A stretch of DNA of 42,154 nucleotides from assembly GCA_021776375.1 (NCBI GenBank), contig JAJFGA010000025.1, positions 1 through 42,154 on the forward strand. Reading direction: 5' to 3'. The notes under the pieces are model-generated. The model was not told the DNA's origin, searched no databases, and was given only the letters and a program-made list of their open reading frames with translations. The translations under genes were made by a program, and so were the position numbers. This document shows, in pieces, positions 25,252-36,024 of this stretch. Every line of letters starts with the position of its first letter. Within the stretch, counting starts at the first letter, position 1. The DNA is from Hyphococcus sp. Lineage in GTDB: Bacteria; Pseudomonadota; Alphaproteobacteria; Caulobacterales; Parvularculaceae.

Positions 25252-25323
25252 ATGACGAATATACTTAGAAATCTGGCGCCAGTCTTGAAGTCTTTCCTCT
25301 GACAGAAATGACGGGTGCGGGCC

Positions 25324-26034
25324 ATGAAACGCCGTGAAGTCTTGGCGTTAATTATCTTTTTTGCAATGACGACGGCGGCTTTGACGCCGACGGCGTACCG
25401 TCTTGGCGTCACCCATGGGAGCGCTTTTGCCGCCATTGCGCCGGTTACGCGCCCAATTCTGTCCGAAAATGGCGCCCTAGCACCCTCCCCTGGACCAATC
25501 GCGGCGCGCCGCCTGACGGCCGAGGACTGCTCTAATCTGGGACAACCGGGGAGCATTGCTCGCCCGGGCATGGAAATTGACTGCCTGCCGGCGTCCGGCG
25601 CCCATGCAGCGCCCGCCTTTGCTGCCGCGCCACCACATAATTCAGGAACCCGTGCGGGGGCGAAGCCTGGGAATTTGACCACCGCCATGGTCTCGGCCAT
25701 CACCGAAGGCGGCGCACCCAGCGCAGCCACCGCAACGGCTGAACCGCGCGCAAGCGTTCTCGGCTCGCCGATAGGCCTGGCGCTGGCGCCGGACGGCAAG
25801 CCTGGCGAGCCGGGGGTTTTCCCCGGTGGCGGACTTCCCGGCTCTTTCATTCCCGTGGGCCTTGCGCCACAGGTCCCGCCGCCTGGAAATGTCCCTCCCG
25901 GAGAGGACCCGACTGGCGATCCGCCCGATGACCCGTTTGAAGATCTGCCAGATCTGGTGGTGCCGCTCCCCGCTGGTTTTCCCCTGATGCTGACCGGCCT
26001 GATCGGACTTTTCGCCGCCTTGCGTAAAAAATAG
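25324..26034 (+). CDS. Pro/Gly-rich exported protein with VPLPA-CTERM sorting signal
   Basis: About 236 residues from the ATG at 25324 (a GTG at 25315 is in frame). The N-terminus is a signal or anchor (MKRREVLALIIFFAMTTAAL). There is no compact domain. Residues 30-150 are Ala/Pro/Ser-rich with two Cys (EDCSNL, IDCLP), and 155-210 is a Gly/Pro/Asp stalk (PGEPGVFPGGGLPG, PPPGNVPPGEDPTGDPPDD). The C-terminus VVPLPAGFPLMLTGLIGLF followed by ALRKK is a good VPLPA-CTERM signal, which is the main evidence that this frame is real; a long frame on the opposite strand has no such feature. It is probably a surface protein processed by an exosortase coded elsewhere. It is divergent from rimP. Confidence 0.78.
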   Translation: MKRREVLALIIFFAMTTAALTPTAYRLGVTHGSAFAAIAPVTRPILSENGALAPSPGPIAARRLTAEDCSNLGQPGSIARPGMEIDCLPASGAHAAPAFAAAPPHNSGTRAGAKPGNLTTAMVSAITEGGAPSAATATAEPRASVLGSPIGLALAPDGKPGEPGVFPGGGLPGSFIPVGLAPQVPPPGNVPPGEDPTGDPPDDPFEDLPDLVVPLPAGFPLMLTGLIGLFAALRKK

Positions 26035-33250: not shown

Positions 33251-35623
33251 ATGAGCGACAAAAAGCGATATTGGACCGGGACACGCAAAGCCCCGGGGCA
33301 GGACAAGTTCTTCATTGAGGCGCTGGACCCCGGTCTTTGGGAGGCGGGCGACAAGGACCATTGGGATACATGCTGGCATACGGGCATGCCGGCGGCGCGC
33401 GCGTTCAAAACCATGGGCCCTGGCCAGACCATCAACCACATTCCCGGCAACAGCGCCGTCACCGTTAAATCCATGCTCTATGAGACGCTTAGCGCGGCGC
33501 AAGGCCGCGTTGCGGGTGATGAGCGGCGCGCCCGGTTCGGGATTTTTCCGCGCAGTTTTTCAATGCCGGAAGACTATCACGCCCTCCAGCGCGAGGGCTT
33601 TCAACATCCCGACAAAAAATGGATCGCCAAGCCCAAGCGCCTGTCACGCGGGCGCGGGATCAGCGTCCATCAGGATGCAGCGACGCTGCCCAATGACGCC
33701 AAATGGCTGGCGCAGGAATATCTCGCCGACGCACACCTTTATGACGGCTATAAATATGTGTTGCGATGTTATGTTCTGATCAGCTCGATCGATCCGTTAC
33801 GGGTTTATCTTTACAAGGATGGCTTCGTGAAGCTCGCCTCCGAGCTGTATCGCCATGGCGATTATAACAATCTCTATGCGCATCTGACCAACCCCGATGT
33901 CAATGCGCTTAATGAGGGCGCGGACGCCTCCGTGGTGTTTCATAGCTTTGATACCTATCGCACCTGGCTGCGGCGCCAGGGTGGCGCCCCGGAGGCTCTG
34001 TTTGACGGCATTCGCGATATTGCCATCCTCACCGCGATTGCAGCGCGCGAACAGATGCGCCAGCGCATCGCCGCCGCTGGCGCGATTGGCTCTGGATGTT
34101 ACGAGCTTATCGGGCTGGATTGCATGATCGACACGGCGCTTAAACCGTGGCTGCTAGAATGTAATCTCAGCCCCTCGCTTGAGGTTTGCGCCGAACCTGG
34201 AAGCGGCGGCAGAGAGGAAGAGGCGACAAAACGCGCTGTGGTCGCCGATCTGGTCGGGCTAATTGGCCTGAACCGCGCGCGTCAGCCGTCTGGCGAGCGT
34301 GCTGATAAAACCCAGATCATCGCCGAGGCGGCCGACGAGATGAAAAATGCCGGCGGGTTTGAACGGATATTTCCGGGCGAGGACGCCAGCGAATTTCTGC
34401 CCTACTTTCCTGCGCCGCGTTATAGCGACGTTGCGCTCGCCCGCGCGATTTCAAAAACGCCCCCGCCGGAAATGCCGATGCAGCCGGCTGGCGAACAGGC
34501 GTTTGAATTTGACCATAGGTTGGCGTTGTTCTCGCAACAGACCGGCCAGTTCACGACGCCTAATGAGGTGCGCGCCTTCATCTGGCTGAAGGCGTCGCAA
34601 GGCGCAGCGCCGGATGCGATCACTGAGGAGATGGCGCGCCTTACCGGCGCCAGCGCGGCCGAGTGGGAGGCGCTCAGCCGTGATGTTTGGGACGCCATAT
34701 GCGACTGGACCCAGGCCGGCCTGCTTGTGTTGCGCGATGGGCAAACGCCGGGAAAGGCGCCAGACAGTTTAAGTGAAAGCGGGCCCGATGAAAGCTGGTG
34801 TTGCGAGGAATGGCTTAAGGCCAGCGGACAATCCATACGGTTGCGCTATGGCGCGGCGGAAATCCGCCCGCGCTTGGAGACCTTGATAACAGCCTTGCGC
34901 GCTGGCCCATCAGAACCCGCAGTTGAAATAGACATCCTGCGCGGCAAGGTTGGCTACGCGATTGCCCGTGGCGCGCGATTGGTCCGCTCGGGGCTCAGAC
35001 TATCGCAAATCGCCGACGCCTTGCGCGAAATATTCCTCAACGATTATGCCGCCAGCCACGCCGATCAACTTTGTTGTGACGCATCACTATGCGCGTCGCC
35101 GCAAGGCGCGGTGATTTTCGCCAGCACGGCCGGCGGACGCTGGGACGAGCTGGCGCTGCGTTATGCGACAACGCATGGCGGCGCATTCCTCGCTGGGGCG
35201 TGCGCCCTCGGACCGGCGCCGGGCGAGGCGGCAGCGCTGACGGCGCCCGGACGGATTAACGAAGGCGCCGCCGGAACATTCGGCGGCGAGGGCGACTATG
35301 TTGACGCGACAACCCAGGAATGGCGCAGCACACGCGGCTGCTTCATTCCGTACAACGATCAAAATGACAGCACCACATGCAAGGTTCGCGCGGTCGTCAT
35401 TCCCGTGTACGAGGCCAACGCCGCCGTGGCGGAAATATCTGAAATGGACGGCCCGGATGGCTTACTTGCGCTCAATGCGGTGCGCCGCAAAGGCCCAGAG
35501 CCTCTGAAATTTGACAGCGCCCGACAGATCTATGAATGGCGCAAGGCCGTTCGCGTCTTGGAGGTTCGCTATAGCGGCGCCAGCGATGCCGCGCGGCTTA
35601 TTGCCGACACTCTCTCGCGGTAA
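33251..35623 (+). CDS. TTL-type ATP-grasp ligase fused to PqqD-like and HPr-kinase-like domains
   Basis: 790 residues, no signal peptide. Residues about 60-310 match tubulin-tyrosine-ligase-like enzymes block by block: NHIPGNSAVTVKSM (62-75), WIAKPKRLSRGRGIS (124-138) with Lys127, AQEYLADAHLYDGYKYVLRC (154-173), PLRVYLYKDGFVKLAS (182-197), NNLYAHLTN (206-214), and IGLDCMIDTALKPWLLECN (287-305) with Asp290, Glu303 and Asn305 as metal/ATP ligands. Residues about 415-495 (FDHRLALFSQQTGQFTTPNE, ending DWTQAGLLVL) resemble a PqqD-like winged helix. Residues about 525-790 resemble the HPr-kinase-related proteins found beside PqqD-like chaperones, but the P-loop position (621-635, VIFASTAGGRWDELA) lacks GxxGxGK[ST]. 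Expected chemistry of the first part is ATP-dependent ligation of an amino acid to a protein or peptide; the substrate is unknown. It stands alone on the plus strand between trmB and metK. Confidence 0.85.
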   Translation: MSDKKRYWTGTRKAPGQDKFFIEALDPGLWEAGDKDHWDTCWHTGMPAARAFKTMGPGQTINHIPGNSAVTVKSMLYETLSAAQGRVAGDERRARFGIFPRSFSMPEDYHALQREGFQHPDKKWIAKPKRLSRGRGISVHQDAATLPNDAKWLAQEYLADAHLYDGYKYVLRCYVLISSIDPLRVYLYKDGFVKLASELYRHGDYNNLYAHLTNPDVNALNEGADASVVFHSFDTYRTWLRRQGGAPEALFDGIRDIAILTAIAAREQMRQRIAAAGAIGSGCYELIGLDCMIDTALKPWLLECNLSPSLEVCAEPGSGGREEEATKRAVVADLVGLIGLNRARQPSGERADKTQIIAEAADEMKNAGGFERIFPGEDASEFLPYFPAPRYSDVALARAISKTPPPEMPMQPAGEQAFEFDHRLALFSQQTGQFTTPNEVRAFIWLKASQGAAPDAITEEMARLTGASAAEWEALSRDVWDAICDWTQAGLLVLRDGQTPGKAPDSLSESGPDESWCCEEWLKASGQSIRLRYGAAEIRPRLETLITALRAGPSEPAVEIDILRGKVGYAIARGARLVRSGLRLSQIADALREIFLNDYAASHADQLCCDASLCASPQGAVIFASTAGGRWDELALRYATTHGGAFLAGACALGPAPGEAAALTAPGRINEGAAGTFGGEGDYVDATTQEWRSTRGCFIPYNDQNDSTTCKVRAVVIPVYEANAAVAEISEMDGPDGLLALNAVRRKGPEPLKFDSARQIYEWRKAVRVLEVRYSGASDAARLIADTLSR

Positions 35624-35649: not shown

Positions 35650-35677
35650 AAAAAGGCGCCCCATAGGAGCGCCTTTT
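35650..35677. terminator. Bidirectional intrinsic terminator
   Basis: AAAAGGCGC at 35651-35659 pairs with GCGCCTTTT at 35669-35677 around the loop CCCATAGGA. The T run after the stem on the plus strand and the matching A run on the left serve both convergent transcripts, the TTL-type gene (stop at 35623) and the lipoprotein gene (stop at 35710). Confidence 0.8.
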
Positions 35678-35709: not shown

Positions 35710-36024
35710 TTACTCGGTTGCGGCTTCTTCTGCTTCAGCTTCTGCTTCGCCCTCTGCTTCTGCTTCGCCTTCAGCTTCTGCTTCACCCTCTGCTTCAGCC
35801 TCGCCCTCTGCTTCGGCTTCACCCTCTGCTTCGGCTTCCGCTTCGCCGGCTGCTTCGCTCGCTGTATCTTCAGCAGCGTCAGCCGCCTCGGTCGCAGCCG
35901 CCTCAGCGCCTTTGTCGCCATCTTCCGGCTGACAAGCCGCCAGCAGCAGCGCCGCCGGCGCCGTCACGGCCAAAACTTTAGTCAGTGTCGCCAGCAAATT
36001 GTCTTTGTTTTCGATTTTCGCCAT
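35710..36024 (-). CDS. Small lipoprotein with Glu/Ala hexapeptide-repeat tail
   Basis: 104 residues. After a basic start comes a hydrophobic signal and the lipobox LLAAC (Cys31), then CQPEDGDKGAEAA. From about residue 60 to 98 the sequence is a tandem repeat of GEAEAE with small variations, and the protein ends EEAATE. There is no basic residue after Lys38, so the tail is strongly negative. A good ribosome site (GAGGACGGGG) precedes the ATG. I know no family. It would be anchored by lipid with a flexible acidic tail in the periplasm or at the surface. It is convergent with the TTL-type ligase gene; a terminator lies between. Downstream on the same strand as metK and 137 bp past its stop. Confidence 0.75.
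   Translation of the reverse strand: MAKIENKDNLLATLTKVLAVTAPAALLLAACQPEDGDKGAEAAATEAADAAEDTASEAAGEAEAEAEGEAEAEGEAEAEGEAEAEGEAEAEGEAEAEAEEAATE
35731..35847. repeat. 18-bp tandem repeat (minisatellite) inside the lipoprotein gene
   Basis: The DNA that codes for the GEAEAE repeats is itself a run of roughly six 18-bp units built from GCTTCTGCTTC/GCCCTCTGCTTC words on the plus strand. Units differ mostly at third codon positions, so selection has kept the amino acids. Repeat number may vary between strains by slippage. Confidence 0.8.

Follow-up and report, generated by a model that had tools for sequence, protein, structure and literature searches.

Polyglutamylation by TTLL enzymes has been investigated in eukaryotes, where tubulin and a small number of other proteins are modified. 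By analogy, the nearest functional precedent for the system proposed here would be TTLL5, which, as described in PMC13052805, glutamylates the Glu-Gly repeats of RPGR, an acidic repetitive tail being the target there and the proposed target here. Legionella SidJ is also bacterial and glutamylates protein side chains (PMC9117372), but it has a kinase-like fold, depends on host calmodulin and acts on other effectors. On the side of peptide modification, section 7 of the RRE survey PMC12710340 gives W/Y/LxxP/L/I leader motifs for RRE groups, those of PqqD and the lasso peptides among them, in which one hydrophobic residue may stand for another; valine goes unmentioned. The same section describes DUF2063/DUF2282 precursors that bear Sec signal peptides; there, as here, an RRE-type domain goes with such precursors, while both the enzyme and the precursor differ.

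TTLL enzymes and RREs are already known, and what may be new here is their fusion and its pairing with a Glu-repeat protein. Among the matches listed from the open-access literature, none describes either by its title or the start of its abstract, and a term look-up in the graspetide survey PMC8939145 and in PMC12710340 returned no mention of TTL. The fusion is encoded on a 42,154-nt contig of Hyphococcus sp. (JAJFGA010000025.1), called the window below. Compared with eukaryotic TTLL polyglutamylases of the same ligase family, such as TTLL6 (6vzq, 6vzt) and TTLL7 (4ylr), the protein is bacterial, has an RRE and an HprK-like domain in place of the eukaryotic C-terminal extensions, and has as its proposed target an exported protein with a leader.

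A TTLL-type ligase domain in a maintained gene

The ORF at 33251-35623 (+) encodes 790 aa, as an earlier note made from the sequence had stated, and is flanked by genes that we take from their translations to be trmB-like and metK-like. Compared with four relatives (dS being saturated in one comparison), dN/dS was 0.12-0.15 for residues 1-390, 0.13-0.24 for residues 391-500 and 0.30-0.42 for residues 501-790, which shows that the gene is maintained and that residues 512-790 evolve faster than the ligase part yet stay constrained. The earlier note divided the protein into three parts, and this division is supported: neither of the outcomes it had named as counting against it, ATP-grasp residues that vary among orthologues or a lack of structural matches to PqqD or HprK folds, turned up. 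Elsewhere in the window, the protein encoded at 25315-26034 (+) ends in VPLPAGFPLMLTGLIGLFAALRKK, by its look presumably a VPLPA/PEP-CTERM sorting signal.

Residues 1-392 (33251..34426, +) form the TTLL-type ATP-grasp ligase domain. The TTL/TTLL motifs pointed out for this part are present, as KPKRLSRGRGI and PWLLECN, and Pfam TTL (PF03133) matches residues 57-311 at 9.8e-53 (179.7 bits against a cut-off of 20.1), as it matches 16/16 orthologues. The proposed ATP-grasp residues proved constant, with K127 in 19/19 orthologues that have a letter there (one orthologue is a fragment) and E303 and N305 in 20/20; together with Q155, K168, R172, N214, E285, D290 and K298, they are invariant among orthologues with a letter at the position. 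Deviations within the SRGRG loop, a point against the mechanism proposed below, were K133 with Q135 in G895 and A132 with K135 in G666.

Against solved structures, a profile of 16 orthologues matched TTLL6 at 2.9e-63, TTLL7 at 7.8e-53, TTLL11 at 3.3e-32, 5vlq (which we take to be a TTLL3) at 5e-18 and TTL at 1.6e-16. By these profile scores the domain appears closer to the glutamylases TTLL6, TTLL7 and TTLL11 than to 5vlq or TTL, and the polyglutamylase TTLL6 appears to be the closest of the solved structures to residues 1-390. The TTLL6 alignment spans profile positions 26-384 and so extends past the Pfam domain. The PDB sequence 6vzq, presumably an engineered variant, has Arg at the place of TTLL6 Q180 and scored 156.6 bits, as against 151.6 bits for 6vzt, which has Gln there.

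The same place is occupied by R133 in the window protein, with Arg in 18/19 orthologues and Lys in 1/19. Q180 is named in PMC12366701 as the main determinant of selectivity, and PMC7970040 reports that an Arg replacing it can hydrogen-bond with the acceptor glutamate and that gamma-linked addition is then favoured, so Arg133 hints at an enzyme of the branch-initiating type. This depends on a single position, and the position gives a hint rather than a strict rule, since TTLL7, which both initiates and elongates chains according to a table in PMC7970040, carries Met there in the profile alignment. Leu306 is given no weight here, as PMC7970040 treats TTLL6 H362 ambiguously.

Relatives of the ligase were found in 12/62 genomes of the family, 9/249 of the order, 3/289 of the class and 3/398 of the phylum, the window's own genome being counted in each figure. 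The carriers are Alphaproteobacteria and two genomes outside that class, with relatives at 79-80% identity in two Marinicaulis sp. and one Alphaproteobacteria bacterium. Pfam TTL itself was matched in 4/289 genomes of the class sample and in 16/396 of the phylum sample, where the matches of G000, G666 and G895 were strong over most of the model and the other 13 partial or short. Plasmid records yielded no relative at 1e-5. Phage records yielded two, both weak (LR756501.1 and LR756503.1), in which a TTL-like stretch at 662309-663043 of a 735-kb uncultured phage shows 23% identity to residues 56-311.

A PqqD-like winged helix and a degenerate HprK-related domain

Residues 408-503 (34472..34759, +) had been thought to resemble a PqqD-like winged helix. 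Pfam PqqD matches the window protein weakly (E 0.017, below Pfam's cut-off) and matches 11/16 orthologues, at best at 1e-4, while a profile of these residues matched the lasso-peptide RRE TbiB1 at 0.0013. A structure model of the same residues (pLDDT 73.9) was compared by Foldseek, and the top seven chains were all lasso B1/PqqD proteins, with E values of 0.01-0.71 and large rmsd. By fold and sequence this part is a winged-helix RRE, which bears the earlier note out, and its nearest relatives are structures solved with leader peptides. The lasso B1/PqqD systems (TbiB1, 5v1u; lasso B1, 6jx3; PqqD, 3g2b) share with ours the RRE fold, the nearest sequences and a leader motif of the [YVL]xxP type, and differ in that the modifying enzyme here is a TTLL ligase, that the tail is long and repetitive and that in some genomes a whole cytochrome domain comes after it. 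A full-length structure model made from four close sequences reached a pLDDT of 30.7 and was discarded.

For residues 512-790 (34784..35620, +), library models gave no HprK match in the ligase protein or its orthologues, and the ligase was absent from the matches of TIGR04352 (HprK_rel_A) at E <= 10 in four genomes. TIGR04352, the nearest NCBIfam model, did find P0002 of G895 (locus L100) at E 7.6e-9, below its cut-off; this protein keeps its P-loop and has a C-terminal PqqD domain (1.5e-8). A profile of residues 512-790 aligned with P0002 co-linearly over 225 columns (probability 89.7, score 50.4); 69 decoys reached 18.9 at the highest and 60 shuffles 19.5. The result argues for the HprK-related homology that had been suspected. 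Both proteins thus combine PqqD with an HprK-related part, but in P0002 the domain order is reversed and a ligase is lacking. The same profile gave only chance matches against PDB sequences (best 0.44), and the ordinary HprK of locus L101 gave no alignment.

The P-loop kept in P0002 is lost here. Its place in the window protein reads ASTAGGRWDELA, without GK[ST] as the earlier note observed, and none of the 20 orthologues has GK[ST] there; 17/20 have Trp followed by Asp or Glu, and a GGKT in L025 lies away from the P-loop place. We read residues 512-790 as a probably dead, HprK-derived domain, lacking at this place the P-loop of HprK-related kinases. At L100:1126-2785 the neighbour of the P-loop-keeping HprK-like/PqqD protein is 148 aa long, has SRPxYSRP repeats and carries YVAP in its leader; the two may be a kinase version of the arrangement described below.

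A Glu-rich partner gene at every ligase locus examined

The earlier note was right about the ORF and its domains and incomplete in leaving out the neighbour at 35710..36024 (-), a convergent gene of 104 aa whose product combines a leader or signal peptide with a Glu-rich repeat tail. A GC-rich short inverted repeat with A and T runs on its flanks, terminator-like as read from the sequence, lies between the two genes at 35650..35677. The idea that the ligase is a self-contained substrate-binding and ligating machine fits, and this neighbour would be the likely substrate.

Such a gene was present at 20/20 ligase loci in the 19 genomes of our study set, many of them incomplete, with its nearest copy at most 276 nt from the ligase. 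In 13 loci the two genes are convergent (partner on the 3' side), in five divergent (5' side; G029, G018, G256, G073 and G224) and in two on the same strand with the partner downstream (G666 and G895, each of which has a second partner copy), and in G037 the ORF ends of ligase and partner overlap. At 20/20 loci the layout is RiPP-like, with a conserved-leader precursor beside an RRE-bearing modifying enzyme. Among 2182 ORFs over 341 kb (19/20 loci, G025 being left out), 24 were A/G/E-rich, of which 21 carried the leader motif and were partners and three belonged to one long protein family, by its start presumably NusA. When ORFs of 19 loci were compared in eight groups defined by us on kinship, the ligase recurred in 8/8 groups and the partner, by BLAST alone, in 5/8; no other gene family recurred near the pair in more than 3/8. 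No P value is claimed for the pairing because the genomes are related.

Several loci deserve mention on their own account. In G029 (C28:7977-8581, L015) there is a ligase piece that covers residues 1-74 and contains a stop; the partner leader next to it looks intact. The ligase gene of G026 (C62:9647-12009; L010, L014) is in two pieces with a break near residue 114, from a frameshift or an assembly error. In the genomes outside the class, a DinB-type protein (Pfam 2.8e-6) is encoded near the pair at L047:6774-7379, with a similar-looking frame at about 6490-6750 of L046.

Conservation of the partner leader

The window's leader, residues 1-37 (35914..36024, -), is hydrophobic and contains V20-x-x-P23 and, at residues 28-31, LAAC, which we take to be a lipobox; the partner of the window's group looks like a lipoprotein, going by these residues. 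In the alignment of 22 leaders Pro23 is invariant (22/22) and [YVL]xxP is found in 21/22, the residue three before Pro23 being V in 11, Y in nine and L and A in one each. The motif appears to fit the type that section 7 of PMC12710340 reports for PqqD-type RREs. The leader also looks like a signal peptide, and signal-peptide function could be a partial cause of its conservation.

When the 62 genomes of the family were searched with a leader profile, 14 places matched strongly (E <= 2.7e-13); all of them lie in the 12 genomes with the ligase, always on a contig that also bears a ligase or a piece of one, and one of them (the G029:C28 leader) was outside the profile. The next best match was at 0.002. 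At E <= 0.1 some match appeared in 51/62 genomes, which we took as chance, and therefore only the strong ones were counted. In the order sample the nine carriers gave matches at <= 5.8e-13; G162, which is not a carrier, followed at 5.7e-4. Since most of the family and order leaders were in the profile, the leaders were split into two sets, one from the window's group of ten lipoprotein-type loci and one from the others, a set that took in G029 and the second G038 locus in spite of their belonging to the same genus. The profile of the ten window-group leaders ranked 9/12 others above every non-partner ORF and missed three, and the profile of the 12 others ranked 9/9 window-group leaders above every non-partner, three of them at E 0.11-0.17.

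The pair might be linked in another way, the partner being an effector, regulator or delivery partner of a ligase that modifies a different protein, and a leader conserved as a signal peptide would be explained as well by such a link. We regard this as distinctly unlikely, considering that the enzyme carries a fused RRE, that ligase and partner stay paired though their order and surroundings vary, and that TTLL enzymes usually target Glu-rich tails, as described in PMC13052805. The reading that we prefer is that the partner is the substrate.

The Glu-rich tail and what may be added to it

The tail, residues 36-104 (35713..35919, -), consists of 69 residues, namely 26 Glu, 27 Ala, 8 Gly, 3 Asp, 3 Thr, 1 Lys and 1 Ser, with GEAEAE as its repeat unit. 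TTL-family ligases and the ATP-grasp ligases of graspetides are different classes of enzyme. An RRE, a leader and a repetitive acidic core would together suit a true RiPP pathway in which the ligase, like those of graspetides, makes intramolecular lactam or ester cross-links in the repeats, and some tails (e.g. G029 and G073) do have Lys, Ser or Arg within them. At the same time, graspetide cores offer Lys, Ser or Thr as acceptors, and the window's tail has five such residues (1 Lys, 1 Ser, 3 Thr) to its 26 Glu and none in the repeat unit; moreover, the enzyme belongs to the TTL family and not to the graspetide kind, so that cross-linking seems highly improbable.

With a lipobox-like anchor in the window's group and a Glu-rich acceptor, the tail could also be a primer for a long, envelope-anchored glutamate polymer, a reading helped by TTLL7, which both starts and extends chains (PMC7970040). 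R133, however, looks to be of the initiating and not the elongating type, and we think a polymer primer very unlikely.

In seven of the 19 genomes (G029, G018, G256, G073, G224, G666 and G895) one partner each has a c-type cytochrome domain after the tail, and in 3/3 of the cytochrome-bearing partners scanned SoxA/TsdA cytochrome scored above Pfam's cut-off. In G224 and G073 the surroundings of the pair encode more electron carriers (a cytochrome c and a cytochrome b561), and there the tail could plausibly be an extended anionic appendage of an electron carrier in the periplasm; a purely redox role is disfavoured because the partner of the window's group is a bare lipoprotein-like protein. At L031:6010-12789 (G029) the pair adjoins what we take, by look, to be nitric oxide reductase subunits, a cytochrome c and a high-potential iron-sulphur protein.

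Among partners that lack a cytochrome domain, many have Glu at or close to the end of the tail. This would agree with a partner that is the substrate of something other than a Glu branch, either a different residue (such as Gly, Ala or Tyr) or an addition to the terminal carboxyl, as with TTL and TTLL11. TTLL enzymes vary in the amino acid they add, other amino acids are also bound by ligases, which is a point against Glu as the added residue, and TTLL11 is able to start on a free C-terminal carboxyl (PMC11574253). On the other hand, the nearest solved relatives are all glutamylases. Moreover, the tail is internal in the cytochrome-bearing partners, so the feature common to all is internal Glu and not a C-terminus. 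An addition of this other kind is in our view unlikely, and we continue with glutamate on the side chains of the tail.

Proposed mechanism and implications

We consider it probable that ligase and partner are a writer-substrate pair for bacterial protein glutamylation, in which the RRE would hold the leader and the TTLL domain would add glutamate to side chains of the tail before export. The partner would be synthesised with its Glu-rich repeat tail behind a leader that is at the same time a signal peptide. Still in the cytoplasm, this leader would be bound at [YVL]xxP by the fused PqqD-like RRE and the tail would be threaded to the TTLL site, where the ATP-grasp domain would activate carboxylates with ATP and add glutamate, most likely as gamma-linked branches on tail glutamates if R133 does mark an initiating enzyme. 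The degenerate HprK-like domain may be catalytically inactive and act as a scaffold or hold the tail. Export would follow, and the polyanionic tail would then belong to a lipoprotein in the window's group or otherwise to a periplasmic protein, which in seven genomes is a c-type cytochrome. Export of a tail already modified in the cytoplasm is unusual, which is a point against this order of events. As a dedicated eraser we considered the one M14 carboxypeptidase encoded on another contig of this genome, but M14 is found in 5/14 control genomes and nothing is drawn from it.

An enzyme that resembles the glutamylases of animal microtubules, fused to an RRE and lying beside an exported Glu-rich repeat protein, suggests that bacteria may have a system of their own for attaching glutamate to proteins. 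We see the chances as evenly balanced that this is a bacteria-native TTLL (poly)glutamylation with a dedicated substrate, in which an RRE-guided writer puts glutamate branches on the Glu-rich tails of exported lipoproteins and cytochromes c, forming a class of modified repeat proteins of its own. Such a system would have the tubulin code as its eukaryotic counterpart, and might have given rise to it or descended from it. If true, the pair would offer a compact two-gene model of how TTLL enzymes select acidic tails, would link protein glutamylation to the RRE-guided modification of peptides, and would put the origin of the TTLL family up for question again.
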